A DNA stretch of 64,000 nt. Origin: Phanerochaete sordida. Taxonomy: Eukaryota > Basidiomycota > Agaricomycetes > Polyporales > Phanerochaetaceae. Shown piece after piece: positions 1,638-11,561 of this stretch; position 1 is the first letter of the stretch; every line of letters starts with the position of its first letter. The notes below the pieces were generated by a model that saw nothing but the letters and a program-made list of their open reading frames with translations, was not told where the DNA came from and did not search any database. The stretch is taken from assembly GCA_019973155.2 (NCBI GenBank), contig BPQB01000027.1, positions 248,001 through 312,000 of the forward strand, given 5' to 3'. A program made the translations under genes and the position numbers.

Positions 1638-4212
1638 CTACAACAGGTGCATCACCGCAAGCAGCGCACTCAGCACGAGGGCAGCAACCGACGGCGCACC
1701 GCGGATCGCGCCGTTCGAGCCCGTCGTCGTCGCGGTCGTGGACGCCGCTTGCGCGAGGAGGTCGGGGCACTGCGGCGCGGTGAGCACGCTGCCGTACTCG
1801 CTCGCAAGGATGAGCACGACGCCGTTCGTCCAGCCGAAGCCCGCCTGCACAGTGTACTCGCCGCCGCGCCCGGCGGAGTCGATGTCCGAGATCGAGAACT
1901 TCTCGAACATCTGCGCATCTGTCAGTACTCGCCAGAGCATATCGAGACGGAGAAGAACGCACGTTGCCGGTGTTGTTCACGCTCTGCGTCACGTTCAGCT
2001 CCTGGTCCGACAGGCGCGGGAGGATGTTCGGGATCGACCCGCCGGTGGCGTGCCAGCTGCAGAAGGCGCTCGCGAAGTAGCGGTTCGCGAGCTCGCGCTG
2101 GAGCGTCTGCGCCCAGCCCTCGCCGGCCGTCGCGTTCCCGCCGTTCACGACGGTGCCGTTGAGCGTGTTGAGGTCCGCGCCGGGCCCGCTCTTCGTCGCG
2201 TTGCTCGCGCCGATGATGAGCTGCCCGGGGAGCTGGGCCTCGGGGATCACGAGCTGGCCGGAGGGGATGAGGTCAAAGGTTGACTGGTTGCCGCTTGGCT
2301 TGGGCAGCGCGGTGGAGGAGACGTTCGCGGGCAAAGCTTTGAGCGCCTCGAGGATGATGTGCTGGTGTGGCGGCCAGGCGTTCGGCGCGTCCCACTGGAG
2401 GCCCGACTCGACGAACGTGACAGGGACTGTACCGTTGTAGCGGTTCAGCACCATGTTCACGACGGAGAAGAAGCCGAATGCGTTCTGCGTTGAGCTGAGA
2501 AGCTCATCAGGGACGATCCCGTTCCAGAGCGGGTAGAAGGTCGCAGTCGTGAAGATGTCGTTGCGTGCATTCGATGTCTGGTTGAAGTCGTAGAATGCGA
2601 GCTTCGTCGGGTCCCAGAAGAGGTCAAGGATACCGGCACGGATGGTAGACGCCGTTGAGCGGTGCGAGCTGGCAGCCGAAGAATTTCCCTGCGAGTCGTA
2701 CAACTGGGCCAGGAACCCGTGTGAAGCGTCTATCAATGGTCCTCAGCACGGATGTTACGATAAATCGGCGCATGTACTCACAAAGAATGCTGTTCAAGTC
2801 AACAGGAATGTTGTTCTTGATGTTGTAGCTCCTCAGCGCCGGGTTCGTGTTGTTCGATCCGCCAGCGAGAGGTTCTTTGACGAACCGGGTCGAGTAATCC
2901 CAGCCACTCTCGGCGCCAGAGGCGAGCTCAGAGTACAGTTCTGCGCGTTCGTCGTCCGTAAGAGGAGTCGTGAGCATCGGATCGTTGGCTGTGAGGTAAT
3001 CTGCGAGATAGATGAGCATATAATTCGCGCAAGAGTAAGCTGATTCGCTGACCAGTGAGATATGATTCGGGACGAGGCGCAGTATTGACCACCGCGTAGC
3101 GAGCCATGGGGTAGGTTTGGTTCGTGAATGGGCTCGTGACTGTCACTGTGCGGTTCGTCGTCCACCAAGCCAGCTCCTTCTCAGCAAGCGGAAGTGCCCG
3201 AGACAACATGGACGTGTCGTTCGTGGTTGACACGTATTCGAAGAGCATTCGAATGAACAGCGGCGGCTGAGAACGGTTGAGATCTGGAGCAGGCGCGTGA
3301 GCTTCCGCGTACATGCAATAATCAGACCGTGTTCCCCACAATAGATGCGTCCGCCATTCGGGATGAAGCCGAAGTGATCTAGCTCGTCCATGAAGTTCTG
3401 GAGGGTATCATTTGCCACGGCAAATAGCTCCGACTTGAGGAGGCCGCGGACGATCCAGTACGAGTCCCAGTAGTCTGCACAGATCCAGAGTCAGGAATGG
3501 CCGCATATATGCGCGAAAAGTGCTCACATTGCTCCCTGAAGCGACCACCCGGGATGACAAATGTGTGGTTGAGGGGGATGAGCGAAGACTCGCACGACCC
3601 GCTCTCCGTACCCTCAGGACACAAGGTTGTATCGTTTGTCGAGCGAGCGAGCTGAGTCCAGTAGCCGTGAACGGTCTGGGACCACGCCTTGAGAAGGGGG
3701 TCCGTGACATTGTTCAGGAAGGCAGGGTTCGTGTTGAACTGAGGAAGAGCGACGGCCTCAAGCTCAAGACCTTCGCCCCGGAAGTCGTTGTCCAAGAACG
3801 TCACGATCGAGCCCTCTGTCGTGCTGGCGTTGAACAGCGCGTTGAAGTCGGATAGGACTTGCTGCGACGACTTGGACGTTGGCTTGTCCACGATAGTCTT
3901 CTGGTCCGAGTATGGCTGCGCCAGGTTCACGGTTTGCAGCAGCTAGCTCAGCAAGTCAGCAACGCGCCTTGTGACAGGGTCCTAATCACGCACCTCGCCC
4001 GCGCAGAAGATCTCGCTCGGACACCATGCTTGCTTCGGCGGCAGCGGCACCTGCGAGGGCAGCGTGTTCGTGAGGGGGGCCGTCGGCGCAGGGGTCGCGG
4101 TGGACAAGGTTATGGAGGGTACACCGGTAGAGACTTGAGCCTGGGGAACACCGCGCACGCCGTGGGCGAGGCAAAGCGCGACGGCGGCGACCTCTGCGCG
4201 CATGGACTTCAT
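1638..4212 (-). CDS. Secreted GH37 trehalase, probably GPI-anchored
   Basis: The gene encodes an alpha,alpha-trehalase of glycoside hydrolase family 37, which splits trehalose into two glucoses. Both family signatures are visible: PGGRF in the exon near 3540 followed by DYWDSYW near 3465, and QWDAPNAWPP near 2395. The C-terminal GGEYTVQAGFGWTNGV near 1850 is also typical. The start at 4212 gives a signal peptide (MKSMRAEVAAVALCLAHGVRG). Many NxS/T sites suggest glycosylation. The last exon ends in a Ser/Thr-rich stretch, then a small-residue region and a hydrophobic tail (VAALVLSALLAVMHLL), the pattern of a GPI-attachment signal. Several short introns interrupt the gene. The product is probably a cell-surface or periplasmic enzyme that lets the fungus use external trehalose. 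Family assignment is firm; individual splice sites are inferred. Confidence 0.9.
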
Positions 4213-4642
4213 CGTCTGGCCTGTGGAGGGGCGATCGAAGGCGACGGATGCCCCACACTCCCCCGCATTCTGGCTTTATAGCCCCCGCATCACGATCAAC
4301 CCCGTGGGCCGTCGGACGTCGCCTGCAATTCAAGGAAGAGGCCTGCGTCCCTGCCGTGTTCTGATCAACGCTGTCCCAGATCTTCGTGCGACGTTCTCCG
4401 GATATGACGTTTATTCGCGGGGCCTCCGTGCAGTACCTGGGCACGAAACCGTAAACGCGGTCGTAAAATTGGAACCGAGCGGCAGGCGCACCGAAGATGG
4501 AAGGCCTCCTGACCAACCATCATCGTGCAGGTCATGAGACAAGTCCCTGCGCCCCACATGGCCCACAAAATTTCATCGGCGTCGCGCTGCGCTTGCCTGG
4601 AAGAGTGAAAGGCCCGGCGGGTGCACTCATGCTAGAGTTTGC
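4213..4642. other. Intergenic, trehalase upstream region
   Basis: This interval lies between the trehalase start and the left end of the outer transposon. No gene is seen. It should contain the minus-strand trehalase promoter. The last nine bases (4634-4642, AGAGTTTGC) are the left target duplication of the outer element. Confidence 0.5.
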
Positions 4643-4747
4643 TAGTCTCGTGCCCAGCCGCTTTCTGACTCCGACAGCCTAATGCTGTCGGCCAGTCAAT
4701 CGGACATCGAAAAAACGATGCCTGCTGGCTCGTCAGAGCGTCTGGTC
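4643..4747 (+). repeat. Left terminal inverted repeat, outer part
   Basis: These 105 bp match in inverse orientation 9115-9219. The repeat resumes at 6510 after the hAT insertion (CACTTGAACCGGCGGGGTG) and stays recognisable to about 6556, ending near CACGTGAC. Identity is moderate, which suggests an old element. Confidence 0.85.
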
Positions 4748-6501
4748 CAGGGGTCAACAAAAATACCATTATATTGCATTATACTGGCTTATTATCAATA
4801 ATTTCTAAATAAATATTTGGTCCTCACGCAGACCCTCAGAGCCAGTATACAGAAGTACATTACAATACAGTACCATTACAGTACCAGTACCTGCTCGTAA
4901 TTATTCATAATGCATTTGTGAGAGGCACTAAAGAGCATCTAAGCTGAGCGTGGTGGATAAGGTTTGTAACTCTTGCCTCTTTCGTCTTCACTCCTCTCAC
5001 ACTGCCTTCAGCACCATGAGATCGCCGTCGACGTCCTCAAGTCGGAGAAGAATCGCGCGAAGTACCGTAAGCTGTGCCGCAACTATGTTCCCAAGGGTGC
5101 AAAGCTCCTGGTGCTTGTCCGCAGCATGCCTATTCGCTGGAACACGGTATACGCTGAGCTCAAACGCGGATGGAAGCTGAGGGAGGTGCGTCATGCCGTT
5201 CGCCTTGGTGCCCTGGTATCATATTCATGGATACTCTGTGTGTCCATTGCAGGCGACAAAGCATTACGTGAAGGGCCTCTCCTCGGGTCTCACAGGCAAG
5301 AAGTTCGATGCCGCTGTGCGGAAAGAGGAGCGGCTCTCGCTCTCAGAGTCGGACTGGGGCCTCATCGAGGTTCTGATTCTCATACTCGAGGTACGCCTTC
5401 GTTGGCTGCCCTTCTGATACAAATGCTATTGCTCACACCCTATGCTTTGTAGCCGTTCACCGCCATCACCCTCAGCTTCTCGAGAAAGGGCACCCCGACT
5501 TTCTGCATCGTCGTGCTCTACTACAAGAAGATAGAGACCGAGCTCAAGAACGCCGAAATCGCACACAAGAAGTGCAATGCACAGCTCAAGGTTGGCTTCG
5601 AGCGCGCTCAGGCTAAGCTCAGCAAGCACCTCGAGATTGCTCTCACAAACAAGTACATTATCCTCGGAGCTGGTACGTACCTCACGGTCATGGCTACAAT
5701 GGTTGTTTACTCACGCGCACGCTGTAGTGTTACACCCCGCCATCCGCGTCGCGTACTTCGAGCAGGACGACTTATGGGCGCCTGAGGTTGGCGTGCGTGC
5801 GCGAAACATCCTCGAGGACGCGTACGTCGAGTACGCGGCCAAGATTCGGCCAACCGCCACAGGCTCTACCGGCAAAGCATCAGGCACTGCCGCTGTCAGC
5901 CCAGCGACCAGCTCAACAGCGAGCCTCTTCAGCGCCGCACTCAACATTCGCCGCACAGCTACCATCACTCAACAGGAGTCGGAAGTCGAGACATATCTTA
6001 GACCGGACTTCTTCCCTCACGAGTCTGAAGACGGCGTGTTTTAGTGGTGGAAGGTAGCTCAATCCTGCCATATCCCTGCTGATATGCTGACTCCTTGTCA
6101 GCTTCGGCAGCCTAGCTCATCGTTCTCGCTGCTGTCACGCGCGACGTCCTCGCCATTCCCGGTGTCAGCGTCTCGATCGAGCGCCTTTTCTCGCAGTGCC
6201 AGGGCCCAGCAGACGATTCGGGACCAACGATCGTCCATGTCCGCGCGGACGGCTTCGCAGACCGTGCTTGGCAAGGTCTGGCTCCAACAAGGGCTTGGTG
6301 ACGATGTCGACTAGTACCTGGAAGGCATAATCCATCTGGCATGCTCGCCGCGAGCAGTAATTCCCAATAGATACCAGTATCTAAGTATTACAATACAATA
6401 CATTACCAGTATACTGCAATACGACGCGTGACCCCCTCATAATGATTGGTAATCAGTAAATACGAGCATTTCTGGTATTTATTGGTATTTGTCGAGCCCT
6501 A
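4748..6501 (+). mobile_element. Nested hAT transposon (defective)
   Basis: The element starts CAGGGGTCAACAAAAATACC at 4748 and ends, read in reverse from 6501, TAGGGCTCGACAAATACCA. These are short imperfect terminal inverted repeats of hAT type. The 8 bp GTCTGGTC stands on both sides (4740-4747 and 6502-6509), the duplication length expected of hAT elements. The two ends are AT-rich and full of short CAGTAC/CCAGTAT motifs, typical subterminal binding-site clutter. The centre carries transposase remnants. At 1754 bp it is shorter than usual autonomous hAT elements and it lacks a visible BED zinc finger, so it is probably an internally deleted copy. It inserted into the left repeat of an older element. 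Confidence 0.92.
4973..6314 (+). pseudogene. hAT-family transposase remnant
   Basis: Joined exons read SMPIRWNTVYAELKRGWKLR near 5125-5185, then a central block with EPFTAITLSFSRKGTP near 5450 and HPAIRVAYFEQDDLW near 5735. The C-terminal dimerisation motif DVLAIPGVSVSIERLFS follows near 6145. The RWN motif and the LAIPxxSxxxERLFS motif identify the hAT superfamily. After ERLFS the frame must shift by one to continue RSSMSARTASQTVLGKVWLQ and stop at 6314, so one frameshift lies near 6190-6215. The N-terminal zinc finger and the first catalytic part are not found. Introns near 5186-5252 and 5391-5452 are plausible. The product is probably not an active transposase. Confidence 0.8.
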
Positions 6502-6678
6502 GTCTGGTCCACTTGAACCGGCGGGGTGTAGGTCGCTCGCACGTGACCCGGCGCGCGAGCTCATTAAGGTAACTCTCGACGTTCCCGTCCGTGCGCTTCG
6601 TCCTCTCGCTCGCGTTCGTCACACCTCCGCTCATTACCCGTATACCCTGTATATGCTAGTCTATACCCTCTCTATAAT

Positions 6679-8622
6679 ATGCTCGACGATTCCATGCCAA
6701 TTTCCCCGCCTGCGGGCTCTCCTCCGCCTCTCTCTCGGCCCCAAACACCTGTCCCGCCGCCATGTCCCTACCCCGGCAACGAAGCGTCGTACACGCTGCT
6801 GCAGAACACGCGAAGACAAGCCACGGCTGCCCATGGGTACTCATCCGAGACCACCCGCAACCTCATCATCGACACTCTCAAAGCGAAGTACGGCGTGCCG
6901 CCTCACTGCTGGCAGGTCGACGTCTCGGAGGCGTTCCACCTTCGACTTGACGTGTCCTTGATAGCGGGAACCGGCGCGGGCAAGACCTGGACGTTCCTTG
7001 GCATGCTTGCCGCCGATACCACGGGTGAAAAGCTGCTCATTGTCGTGTGCCCGCTCAATGAGCTGCAGCGTGACCAGGTACGCATTATCAGTCTATTTAC
7101 TGACCTCCGGCGCCGTCTCTATCGTTCTTGTGCCACACTGACACGCGACGTGCTGCAGGTCAAGCGCTTTAAGCGAGCGGGCTATCCTGCGGCTGCCGTG
7201 AACTCAGACACCTGGTCCAAGGAACTTCGCGAGGTTAGTCTGGGATCATCTCGCTAATTACAAGCGTTCTGACCATAGCATTGTAGGATCTGATAAACCG
7301 CAAATTCCGGGCCATCTTTACATCGCCTGAGATGCTCCTCGAGCACCACGGGCTGTCAGCCCTGATCCGCACGCCCAGCTTCACCGAGAACGTCCTGGGC
7401 ATTGCCGTCGACGAAGCGCATACAATCACGCTTTGGGGCGCAGAATTTCGCAAGCAGTTCGCCGAGCTCGAGCGATTGCGCGCATGCCTTCCACTTCATA
7501 TCCCCATCCTTGCGACCTCTGCTACCATGACGCCGGCGATTCTCAAGGACGTTCATGAGAAACTTCGCATCCGGCCGGAGAAGAACTTCCACCTCAATCT
7601 AGGGAACGATCGCCCTAACATCACGCAGATCGTCGTTCGAATCAATAGCCCAAACGACTTCAGCGCCCTCGATTTCGTCCTGGACGAAGTTCTGGCGTCC
7701 GGCGACCCCAAGGATCTTCTTCGTACCCTCGTCTTCGTGAAGACACGCGATCTCGCGCGGAACGTCTGGGAACACCTCAACAGCAAGCTACCGGCGCATC
7801 TACGAAGCTGTATCGACTTCCTTCATGCTGGCCGCCATAATCGAGCGAAGCGACGCGTCATGCGACGCTTTCGTGCGGGCGAGATTCGGTTGCTTGTGGC
7901 GACTGAAGCCGCCGGCCTAGTGAGTCATCAATTCTCTCAATTGTGTTCGTCTAGCTAACATATTGTAGGGTCTAGACATTGGGGACATTGTTCGTGTGGT
8001 GCAATACCTCGTTCCCGGTGACCTCAACGAGTGGATCCAGCACCATGGCCGAGCCGGCCGTGGCGGCCAGCCAGCCATTGCCATCATGCTGGTCGAGGCA
8101 ACAGCCTTCCAGCTGATCAAGAAGCGCAAGAGGCGGCGCAAGAAAGGCCAGAAGGGCCTGCCGGCGAGTGTTGGAGATGCCGGTGGTGCTAACGAGGCGA
8201 GCTCAGACGAAGATGAGGATGGCGGCAACTCTGCGAACGGCGAGGACGACAGCACATCTAATGAACCCAATGGACGACCCACCAGCGACCAACAGGGTGC
8301 CGACAAGGGCCACGATGCTGCCAGCGCCCCCGCGTCGCCGGTGACGCCGCGCAAGCGACCTCTCGAGCTTGAAGAGCCTTCAGATGTGCCCTTGCATTCA
8401 ACACGCAATAATGACAGCGGCTCTGAAGACGAGGGCGACGATGGTGATCCTGATGAAGACGAGGACGATACTGGCGGCGACCACGAGCTACCGGCCGATA
8501 TTGACGACACAGAGGAGCTTGCAAACGGCGCACTTGCGCCGGTGAATCTCGACGCAGGAGATGACGACGACAAGGAGTTTCGGACGGCCATGCGCGCGCG
8601 GCGGTCGGTACCAGTTCTTTAG
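6679..8622 (+). CDS. RecQ-like DEAH helicase of a transposable element
   Basis: The joined frames give a superfamily 2 helicase of about 600 residues. Walker A is GTGAGKT near 6975, motif II is DEAH near 7412 and motif III is SAT near 7523. Motif VI is QHHGRAGRGG near 8038, in the RecQ-type arrangement. Two or three introns are visible: GTACGC near 7078, GTTAGT near 7232 and GTGAGT near 7920. After the helicase core comes a basic stretch (KKRKRRRKKGQKG near 8120) and a long acidic low-complexity tail. There is no RQC or HRDC domain. The final residues before the stop at 8622 run into the antisense of the neighbouring truncated gene, so the original C-terminus has probably been lost. Such helicases are multicopy in agaricomycete genomes. 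Here the gene lies inside target-duplicated inverted repeats, so it is element cargo rather than a host repair gene. Confidence 0.85.
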
Positions 8623-8973
8623 GATGGTCCCGAGCTCCGGGCTCCACATGAGCGCGGTGCGCGCGTACTGGATCTTCCCGTTCGAGGTGCATTCAGGGAC
8701 CGTCCACGAGATTGCATGGAGGAACGTCGTGAGGTCAAGATCGTTCTTGTTCATCGCTTCCAGGACATTAAGGCAGCGGTCTCTCATCCATGCGCCGTCC
8801 TTGAGCTTATGAAACTCTCGCAGAGACTCGGTCTGTCCAGTTGCAGGAACAGCACCTGTGGGCTGCTGGGGCTGTTCAGGCTGTTCTTCAAGTTCGTCCT
8901 CTTCGTCGTCATACCGCTCATCGTCTTCGTCCTCCAGGTCGACTTGGAGCGGTGGCATGGCAGGCAGGGGCAT
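8580..8973 (-). pseudogene. Truncated N-terminus of a DUF6589-like element protein
   Basis: The minus-strand frame starts at 8973 with MPLPAMPPLQVDL. It continues with an acidic stretch (DEDDERYDDEEDELEEQ) and then a structured part: LREFHKLKDG, RCLNVLEAMNKNDLDLTTFL, ARTALMWSPELGTILKNW and YRPPRAHG near 8590. This reads like the N-terminal segment of large multicopy agaricomycete proteins annotated DUF6589, in which a similar helical segment ends in a W-x-x-PPR motif. The resemblance ends at about 8585, exactly where the helicase frame of the other strand takes over. The two genes would have converged, and an internal deletion appears to have removed the 3' part of both. Family assignment is from memory and not confirmed. 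Confidence 0.5.
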
Positions 8974-9064
8974 GTGCAGAAAGATAGAATATATTTGCCG
9001 TGTCTAGAGGTTTCCAGTTGGGCGGGAACCGTCGCGGACGTCGCTCACGGTGCTCACCTAGGTC

Positions 9065-9219
9065 CTACGCGTGCGTCACGTGCGACCGAGCTACACCCGG
9101 CCGGTCGAAGTGGACCAGACATTCTAGCAAGGAGGCTCGACATGAGTTTTACGATGTCCGATAAAGACTCCGACCGGCCTATGCCGGGCGCTTGCTAAGA
9201 ATGGCTGGGGACGAGACTA
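9065..9219 (-). repeat. Right terminal inverted repeat of the outer element
   Basis: This is the uninterrupted partner of the left repeat. Read in reverse it contains GTCTGGTCCACTTCGACCGG at the point where the left copy was hit by the hAT element, so it shows the empty-site sequence. It is flanked at 9220-9228 by the AGAGTTTGC duplication. Confidence 0.85.
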
Positions 9220-9228
9220 AGAGTTTGC

Positions 9229-9773: not shown

Positions 9774-11561
9774 ATGTTCACGCTGCTGGTCGCACTCGCG
9801 ACAGCATTTTATCTCCTTCGCCGTTACGTGCTCGGCATAAGGACGCTCAATAATGCACGCAAGGAGTCCCTCCTGAGAGAGCTTGGCGCGAGCGGAGACA
9901 AACGCGTCGTCGGGTTCTTCCACCCGTACTGGTGAGCAGCTCCCGGCCATACCCTGCGCAGGCGTCCGTTCCTGATCTTACGAAGCCTGGCAGTAATGCA
10001 GGAGGCGGCGGAGAGCGAGTCCTGTGGACTGCTATTGCGAGCATGCAGCGTACGGAGCCCAACATGATCAGCGTCGTGTATAGCGGAGACATCGACGCCT
10101 CGAAGGAGGAGATAATCCAGAAGGTCAAGGTGAGTATATGCACTCCGTCTTCTCTACCATCCCTTGACACTCCACTCTGCAGACTCGGTTTGATATCGAG
10201 CTCTCCCCTAATACCCTTCATTTCGTCTGGCTGCGGAAGCGACATCTCGTGGAAGACGCAGCATGGCCGCGCTTCACTCTGCTGGGACAGAGTCTTGGGT
10301 CTATGGTGCTAGCCTGGGAGGCCATGAATGCGTTGATCCCGGACCTATTCATTGGTGAGTTACCATCCTTGAACGGCAACCGAAGGCAGTTCGTCCTCAT
10401 ACCCCGCGTGCTTCAGACACAATGGGCTACGCCTTCACCTTCCACATCGCAATCCTCCTCGGCGGCATCCCCGTTGGCGCATACGTGCACTACCCTACGA
10501 TCAGCACAGACATGCTCGCGCGCGTCAAGTCGCGCAAGGCATGGCACACGAACTCGGACGCGATCTCGTCGTCGAGCGTCCTGAGCCAGGGCAAGCTGCT
10601 CTACTACCGCCTCTTCATGTACTACTATGCGCAGTCGCTCCGGTGCGCGTCCTTCCTCATGGCGAACTCTTCCTGGACGAAGAACCACGTCGACGCCATT
10701 CTTTGCCACGAGGACAAGCTTCTGGACGTCCTCCACACGTTCACGCCGCTCGTACTCCTGCGTCTGCTGCAGTTCGGCCATGTGTCCCCGAAGGAAGCGA
10801 AGATCGTGTACCCGCCCTGCGACACCCGCGAGATGGCGACGTTTGGACTCGAGAAGAGGGGGCCCATCATCCTCAGCGTGGCACAGTTCAGGCCTGAGAA
10901 GGACCACAAGGCGCAGCTGCGTGCGTTCGAGACGTTTGTGCGCAAGTATCCTCAGTTTAAGGAGAAGGGCGTCAAGCTGGTGCTTATTGGCGGCAGCCGC
11001 AACGCCGAGGATGCGGCTCGCGTTGACAGGCTGCGAGGGCTCGCGAAGGAGCTTGGTATTGAGGTACGCCTGCTACGTCAGTGGACCTTGATGTATACTC
11101 ACCTCGTGTCCGCTCTAGGCGTACGTGGAGTTCATCGTGAATGCGCCCTATCCAGAGATGTTACAATACCTGTCTCGCTCCAGCATCGGCCTGAGCACGA
11201 TGGTCGACGAACACTTCGGGATCAACATCGTTGAGTATATGGCTGCAGGGGTCATCCCTGTGACCCATGCCTCCGGCGGACCGCTCAACGACATCGTTGT
11301 ACCCTTCAACGGCAAGCCTACCGGTATGCCACCTGTCCATGAAGCTCTCTGCCATCTTGCTGATCTTGCATAGGATTCCATGCCATCTCTGCTGACGAGT
11401 ATGCGGACCACTTCCACACCGTCCTCAGCATGAGTTCCGAAGAAGAGCTGGAGCTGCGCTCACGTGCGCGTACCTGGGCTGTGCAGCGTTTCTCAAACGA
11501 GGAGTTCGAGAAAGGGTGGAATGAGAGCGGCTGGAAGAAGTGGGTAGCTGTCGGCGCATAG
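9774..11561 (+). CDS. ALG11: GDP-Man:Man3GlcNAc2-PP-dolichol alpha-1,2-mannosyltransferase
   Basis: The product adds the fourth and fifth mannoses to the lipid-linked oligosaccharide on the cytosolic face of the ER, a step of N-glycan assembly. Conserved blocks are [17 protein letters not shown] (split by an intron near 9934), [20 protein letters not shown] and [36 protein letters not shown]-like [10 protein letters not shown], the GT4 donor-site block [15 protein letters not shown] and [11 protein letters not shown] follow. The start at 9774 gives an N-terminal membrane anchor ([19 protein letters not shown]). In-frame ATGs upstream to 9630 would add up to 48 residues of unconvincing sequence. 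At least four short introns are present, near 9934, 10131, 10354, 11062 and 11323. The stop is TAG at 11559-11561. Gene order around it shows no operon-like relation. Confidence 0.93.

Follow-up and report, generated by a model that had tools for sequence, protein, structure and literature searches.

Structure and gene content of the element

The 64,000-nucleotide stretch of Phanerochaete sordida DNA analysed here (contig BPQB01000027.1, positions 248,001 to 312,000; hereafter the window) contains a DNA transposon that encloses a RecQ-like helicase gene and the remnant of a putative transposase gene of the DUF6589 type (Table 1). The termini of the element are inverted repeats starting with TAGTCTCGT, and an exact 9-bp duplication, AGAGTTTGC, is present on both flanks, as a preliminary description of the locus had stated. 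On the plus strand of the window AGAGTTTGC is present only these two times, and the probability that two random 9-mers from the window match by chance is about 8e-6. By its structure, the element is real and mobile.

The terminal inverted repeats (TIRs) had been described as being about 150 bp in length. This length is right once a nested hAT-like element is recognised, but the left repeat is not continuous: its approximately 145 bp are split into an outer and an inner part because the nested element is inserted between them. The latter has the ends CAGGG/TAGGG and one match in the genome. hAT transposons generate 8-bp duplications, and the label hAT-like is based on the ends together with the 8-bp duplication of the nested element; a Pfam scan of three of its frames yielded no match.

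The predicted introns of the window helicase gene are located at 7078-7158, 7234-7286 and 7920-7968. Its product matches the Pfam families DEAD (E 3.9e-19) and Helicase_C (E 3.5e-17), the best PDB match is WRN (E 1.4e-30), and the best NCBIfam model is TIGR00614 recQ_fam (E 1.1e-45), with a score of 156.3 bits that is below the cut-off of 219.8. The C-terminal region of the helicase is lost, and the reading frame stops within antisense transposase DNA. The transposase remnant was matched at C27:256581-256964 (41% identity, E 1.6e-19), and a further alignment gave 38% over 98 positions (E 3e-19). The remnant is situated outside the stretch covered by the DUF6589 Pfam family and itself gives no Pfam match above the cut-off. 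Since the helicase frame enters and ends in this remnant, a single internal deletion most likely removed the main part of the transposase along with the C-terminal region of the helicase. The window copy is an incomplete element, which has kept the helicase motor and in which the second gene is reduced to its N-terminus.

The insertion is flanked by a trehalase gene (2930-3942, minus strand) and an ALG11-like mannosyltransferase gene (10359-11231, plus strand). As these two genes are transcribed divergently, the element occupies the upstream region common to both.

Table 1 Features of the transposon and of the nested element in the window
Feature	Position	Strand	Remarks
Left 9-bp target-site duplication copy, AGAGTTTGC	4634..4642		
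Whole element, 4577 bp	4643..9219	+	TAGTCTCGT...ACGAGACTA; ends common to 6 other genome elements
Left TIR, outer part	4643..4747	+	Aligns with right arm
Left copy of the 8-bp duplication of the nested element, GTCTGGTC	4740..4747		
Nested hAT-like element inside left TIR	4748..6501	+	Ends CAGGGGTCAACAAA/TAGGGCTCGACAAA; 8-bp duplication
Right copy of the 8-bp duplication of the nested element, GTCTGGTC	6502..6509		
Left TIR, inner part	6502..6547	+	89% complementary to 9075-9120
RecQ-like helicase gene, 586 amino acids (gene model), four predicted exons	6679..8622	+	Pfam DEAD, Helicase_C
N-terminal remnant of DUF6589-type (putative) transposase gene	8581..8973	-	Homology to about 8584
Right TIR, uninterrupted	9075..9219 (start approximate)	-	Pairs with left arm
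Right 9-bp target-site duplication copy	9220..9228		

Copies with the same ends

When the right end was used as a query against the host genome, as suggested in the preliminary description, 12 matches were obtained that belong to seven elements; these counts are lower bounds. In the order window, C37, C36, C9 short, C3, C6 and C15, the elements measure 4577, 6987, 1286, 1276, 1295, 341 and 189 bp. An exact 9-bp duplication was found at all seven and the 9-mers all differ from each other (in the same order: AGAGTTTGC, GACACAGTG, GTGCGTCCT, GACTTCGAC, GCTCGTCGG, CGGACGTGT and GAGGTTCAG). Inverted ends with independent duplications at 7/7 elements bear out the claim that the helicase gene is part of a TIR DNA transposon and moves with it.

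The mini-element at C15 is made up almost entirely of the two ends of the window copy, to which it is 100% identical over 99 bp and 97.8% identical over 90 bp, the latter being the match to the outer part of the left TIR. Three elements (C36:253472-254757, C9:421073-422348 and C3:1145908-1147202) form a non-autonomous family of 1.3 kb. Their ends are 95-98% identical to those of C37 and their full lengths are mutually 75-81% alike, a pattern that would be expected of younger ends or of ends held alike by selection or conversion.

The two-gene element and its DUF6589 protein

The fuller relative at C37 (C37:137422-144408) features two convergent genes, one for a DUF6589 protein and one for a RecQ-like helicase. 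The plus-strand gene has four predicted exons and encodes 899 amino acids that match Pfam PF20231 (DUF6589) with an E value of 8.1e-126; above the cut-off, the Pfam scan of this transposase candidate gave DUF6589 alone. The protein is 100% identical to P0001, 'hypothetical protein PsYK624_102570 [Phanerochaete sordida]'. The minus-strand gene encodes a DEAD/Helicase_C helicase (modelled except for its last intron), which shares 41% identity with the window helicase over 461 aligned positions. The preliminary description had suggested searching for a complete second gene inside the element; C37 carries both genes, whereas of the second one the window copy has the N-terminal remnant only.

The predicted structure of DUF6589 is RNase H-like and of the DDE transposase type, with Hermes, the P element transposase and RAG1 as the nearest folds (moderate scores). 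In the model, the core is RNase H-like and a large helical insertion precedes the glutamate. Residues D302, D472 and E714 (P0001 numbering) are conserved in DUF6589. H507, located past the second aspartate, is kept in 40/40 letters of the alignment and in the relatives at C20, C12, C9 and C189, although the C/D of the C/DxxH signature, a motif described for some superfamilies (PMC10045372), is not. Comparison of DUF6589 with PDB sequences yielded no match at E values up to 1. Judged by the predicted fold and the conserved residues, DUF6589 is very probably the transposase of these elements. The family is not mentioned in the literature searched, so that within the limits of that literature the assignment may be unpublished. 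The DUF6589 protein, rather than the helicase, is thus the presumed mover.

Taken alone, the window copy, a helicase without a full transposase, would also fit the capture of a host RecQ gene or fragment by a small hAT element or one resembling a miniature inverted-repeat transposable element, without a dedicated transposase of its own. This is very improbable, as the same kind of ends at C37 enclose a DUF6589 gene and a helicase, a remnant of the same DUF6589-type protein persists in the window copy, and convergent DUF6589-helicase pairs were found again, with other ends, at C2, C26 and C189.

The element at C37 contains an insertion of its own, a short element (stretch L016, about 540-975). 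This insertion has inverted ends GGTAAGCCC... of 43 bp (93%), contains telomere-like CCCTAA repeats and is flanked by GACGGGTGT on both sides.

Divergent DUF6589 loci

Ten loci in the 40.8 Mb genome match PF20231 above the cut-off, six of which show duplications and TA-ended termini (the left terminus of C9 long has TG). The duplications are 9 bp in length at C37, C20, C189 and C9, 10 bp at C2 and 8 bp at C26 (9 bp if one T is shared). Counting all 12 elements, the seven with the ends of the window copy and five divergent ones, 9 bp was found in ten, 10 bp in one and 8 bp in one. Apart from C37, and from C20 and C2 (right end), where TAGTCTCG words were seen, the ends at these loci were picked by scans for repeats of 8-10 or 9-10 bp, hence their duplication lengths are not independent evidence.

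A loose scan for TIRs with a 9- or 10-bp duplication was made around 12 loci. It did not return the window element (L022), whose ends were presumably outside or at the edge of the span and which was found by the other repeat scan. In a random control with 400 pairs of window segments, 21 reached 14/20 TIR matches together with a 9-bp duplication, two had TAG at both ends, and in 53 both ends reached at least 5/8 to TAGTCTCG. Combinations of a loose TIR and a 9-bp repeat are therefore not uncommon in such a scan, and C9 long (14/20) is unconvincing by the TIR scan alone. It was accepted on the basis of its alignment with C152 (92% identity over 5980 positions), which stops exactly at the predicted terminus in both; C152 starts inside an element, and its right end coincides with that of C9. 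No ends were found at C12 (L054, L060), at C213, at C30 (at a contig start), on the left side of C152 or in the helicase-only stretch L061 at C20. The loci C30, C62 and C64 (L057-L059) were covered by one of the two end scans.

Convergent helicases are clear at C37, C2, C26 and C189. The evidence is weak at C9 and C152, where a genome match of the window helicase was obtained and no Pfam helicase match. A helicase lies near C213 in a different arrangement, and none was found at C12 or C30. An element-like stretch at C64 (L057 3729-4950), with perfect 16/16 ends TAGTGAAGGACAGGGG and an 8-bp repeat GGCGCTCC, adjoins a helicase match at the contig start.

The preliminary description had proposed that such a transposon explains the numbers of helicases in Agaricomycetes. 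In this one genome some helicases do lie at DUF6589 loci, but most of the 73 Helicase_C matches lie elsewhere.

A relative with no detected helicase

The element C20:458740-462450 (L055) is 3711 bp in length, with TIRs of 144 bp at 97% and a 9-bp duplication. Its single recognised gene is DUF6589 (E 7.4e-89). None of the 73 Helicase_C matches in the genome, which do cover the window, C37, C2, C26 and C189, falls within this element, C20 is absent among the 31 genome matches of the window helicase, and a Pfam scan of four longer frames gave no helicase. It is also absent from the 37 DEAD matches, a search in which 36 of 88 candidates were scored and C2 was the only one of the above loci detected. 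A tblastn search (E 1e-4) that used the helicases of C37 and of the window as queries gave no match, which is weak evidence, since the DUF6589 gene there was missed as well. The Helicase_C search missed the helicase at C213; the absence of a helicase from C20 is therefore likely, but not proven.

If C20 owes its movement to the protein it encodes, the stagger of 9 bp is attributable to the transposase. Based on this element, the DUF6589 proteins of many mushroom-forming fungi could be DDE transposases that define a large transposon group, with the helicase as an optional component and the stagger of 9-10 bp set by the transposase; we consider the odds of this generalisation to be even. Alternatively, a helicase may have acted on C20 in trans or may have been lost after the insertion.

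Proposed mechanism and significance

Taken together, we interpret the window copy as a non-autonomous deletion derivative of an AcademH-type cut-and-paste DNA transposon, with a probability of roughly 0.8 that includes the following mechanism. The fuller relative at C37 encodes the putative DDE transposase (DUF6589) and a convergent RecQ-like superfamily 2 helicase. The transposase would bind the TIRs and attach the element termini to the two target strands with a stagger of 9 bp, whereas the helicase would be an accessory factor, which unwinds the ends or aids gap repair or copying, and would not set the stagger. In the window copy, an internal deletion would have removed the transposase body with the helicase C-terminus, and a hAT-like element has inserted in the left end. 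Such a copy could move only with transposase supplied from elsewhere.

DUF6589, a Pfam family without assigned function, thereby gains a concrete likely role as a transposase, and some fungal RecQ-like helicase genes are tied to a mobile element. What the helicase does could be tested within one genome, which holds deletion derivatives and mini-elements beside a two-gene element and a relative that apparently lacks the helicase. It is this relative and the function of DUF6589, not a new superfamily, that make the system interesting.

Comparison with known systems

The predicted DUF6589 fold resembles hAT/Hermes, the P element, RAG1-Transib and IS256 (ISCth4) in its RNase H-like core with a helical insertion before the glutamate, and differs from them in having no detectable sequence similarity to PDB entries. 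An assignment of the main element to hAT was rejected, since the duplications are 9 bp in 7/7 elements, unlike the 8 bp of hAT, and DUF6589 is the only Pfam match above the cut-off.

AcademH transposons have TIRs, AcademX elements encode an XPG nuclease, and Kolobok elements generate 4-bp TTAA duplications. The duplication lengths in the 12 elements differ from the latter, and no transposase family other than DUF6589 was matched above the Pfam cut-off. It is thus extremely improbable that the element is KolobokH or another helicase-bearing Kolobok, despite the likeness that both kinds of transposon include a RecQ helicase: KolobokH encodes one and is known from fungi only, and in the red-algal Kolobok-1_CCri the RecQ helicase is encoded by the complementary strand, similar to the elements described here (PMC9587614). 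Judged by description, KolobokH carries its RecQ helicase downstream of the Kolobok transposase domain, whereas here the helicase is a separate convergent gene with DUF6589 as partner.

The preliminary description knew of no named superfamily with this combination of helicase, terminus and 9-bp duplication. AcademH, a lineage of the Academ superfamily named in Kojima 2020 (Mob DNA 11:15), does unite a helicase with TIRs and duplications of 9-10 bp in fungi. It encodes a helicase and makes duplications of 9 or 10 bp (PMC10045372), is present in low copy number in Basidiomycota, Ascomycota and Mucoromycota, and is among the groups, with KolobokH and Helitrons, to which DEAD and Helicase_C domains are ascribed (PMC10799480). 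The elements with the ends of the window copy agree in all of these respects: they are TIR transposons with exactly 9-bp duplications in 7/7 cases, the window and C37 helicases have both domains, a DDE transposase with an RNase H-like fold is predicted, and the copy number in this basidiomycete is low (at least seven elements, besides ten DUF6589 loci in 40.8 Mb). Based on these described features, and not on a comparison of transposase sequences, the window element most likely belongs to AcademH. AcademX was rejected, as its duplications are 3-4 bp compared to 8-10 bp here and the scanned C37 proteins have no nuclease domain (the C-terminal helicase piece was unscanned).

Alternatively, DUF6589 DDE transposons, sometimes with a RecQ-like helicase, could form a separate unnamed superfamily that is convergent with AcademH in the helicase and the 9-10 bp duplications. 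The link to Academ comes from descriptions in other papers, and among the matches listed no connection with DUF6589 appeared in the literature searched on DUF6589, Academ with XPG nuclease, RecQ expansion in Basidiomycota and the Academ superfamily. Furthermore, the named proteins among the matches listed in both profile searches are fungal, while the title of the 2020 AcademH paper includes animals. However, these searches reach only relatives with exact 5-residue words in common, and the matches are the best 120 of 182 and the best 120 of 154, many of them nameless. Given that the elements agree with AcademH in the length of the duplications and the domains of the helicase, as well as in host phylum and low copy number, we consider a separate superfamily unlikely and retain the assignment to AcademH.

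One relative departs from the AcademH description: AcademH encodes a helicase, whereas none was detected at C20, an element with TIRs, a 9-bp duplication and a DUF6589 gene. It has been suggested that AcademH and AcademX, with duplications of 9-10 and 3-4 bp, respectively, differ in this length in relation to the enzymes they encode, helicase versus nuclease (PMC10045372). A stagger set by the transposase, if true, would contradict this suggestion.
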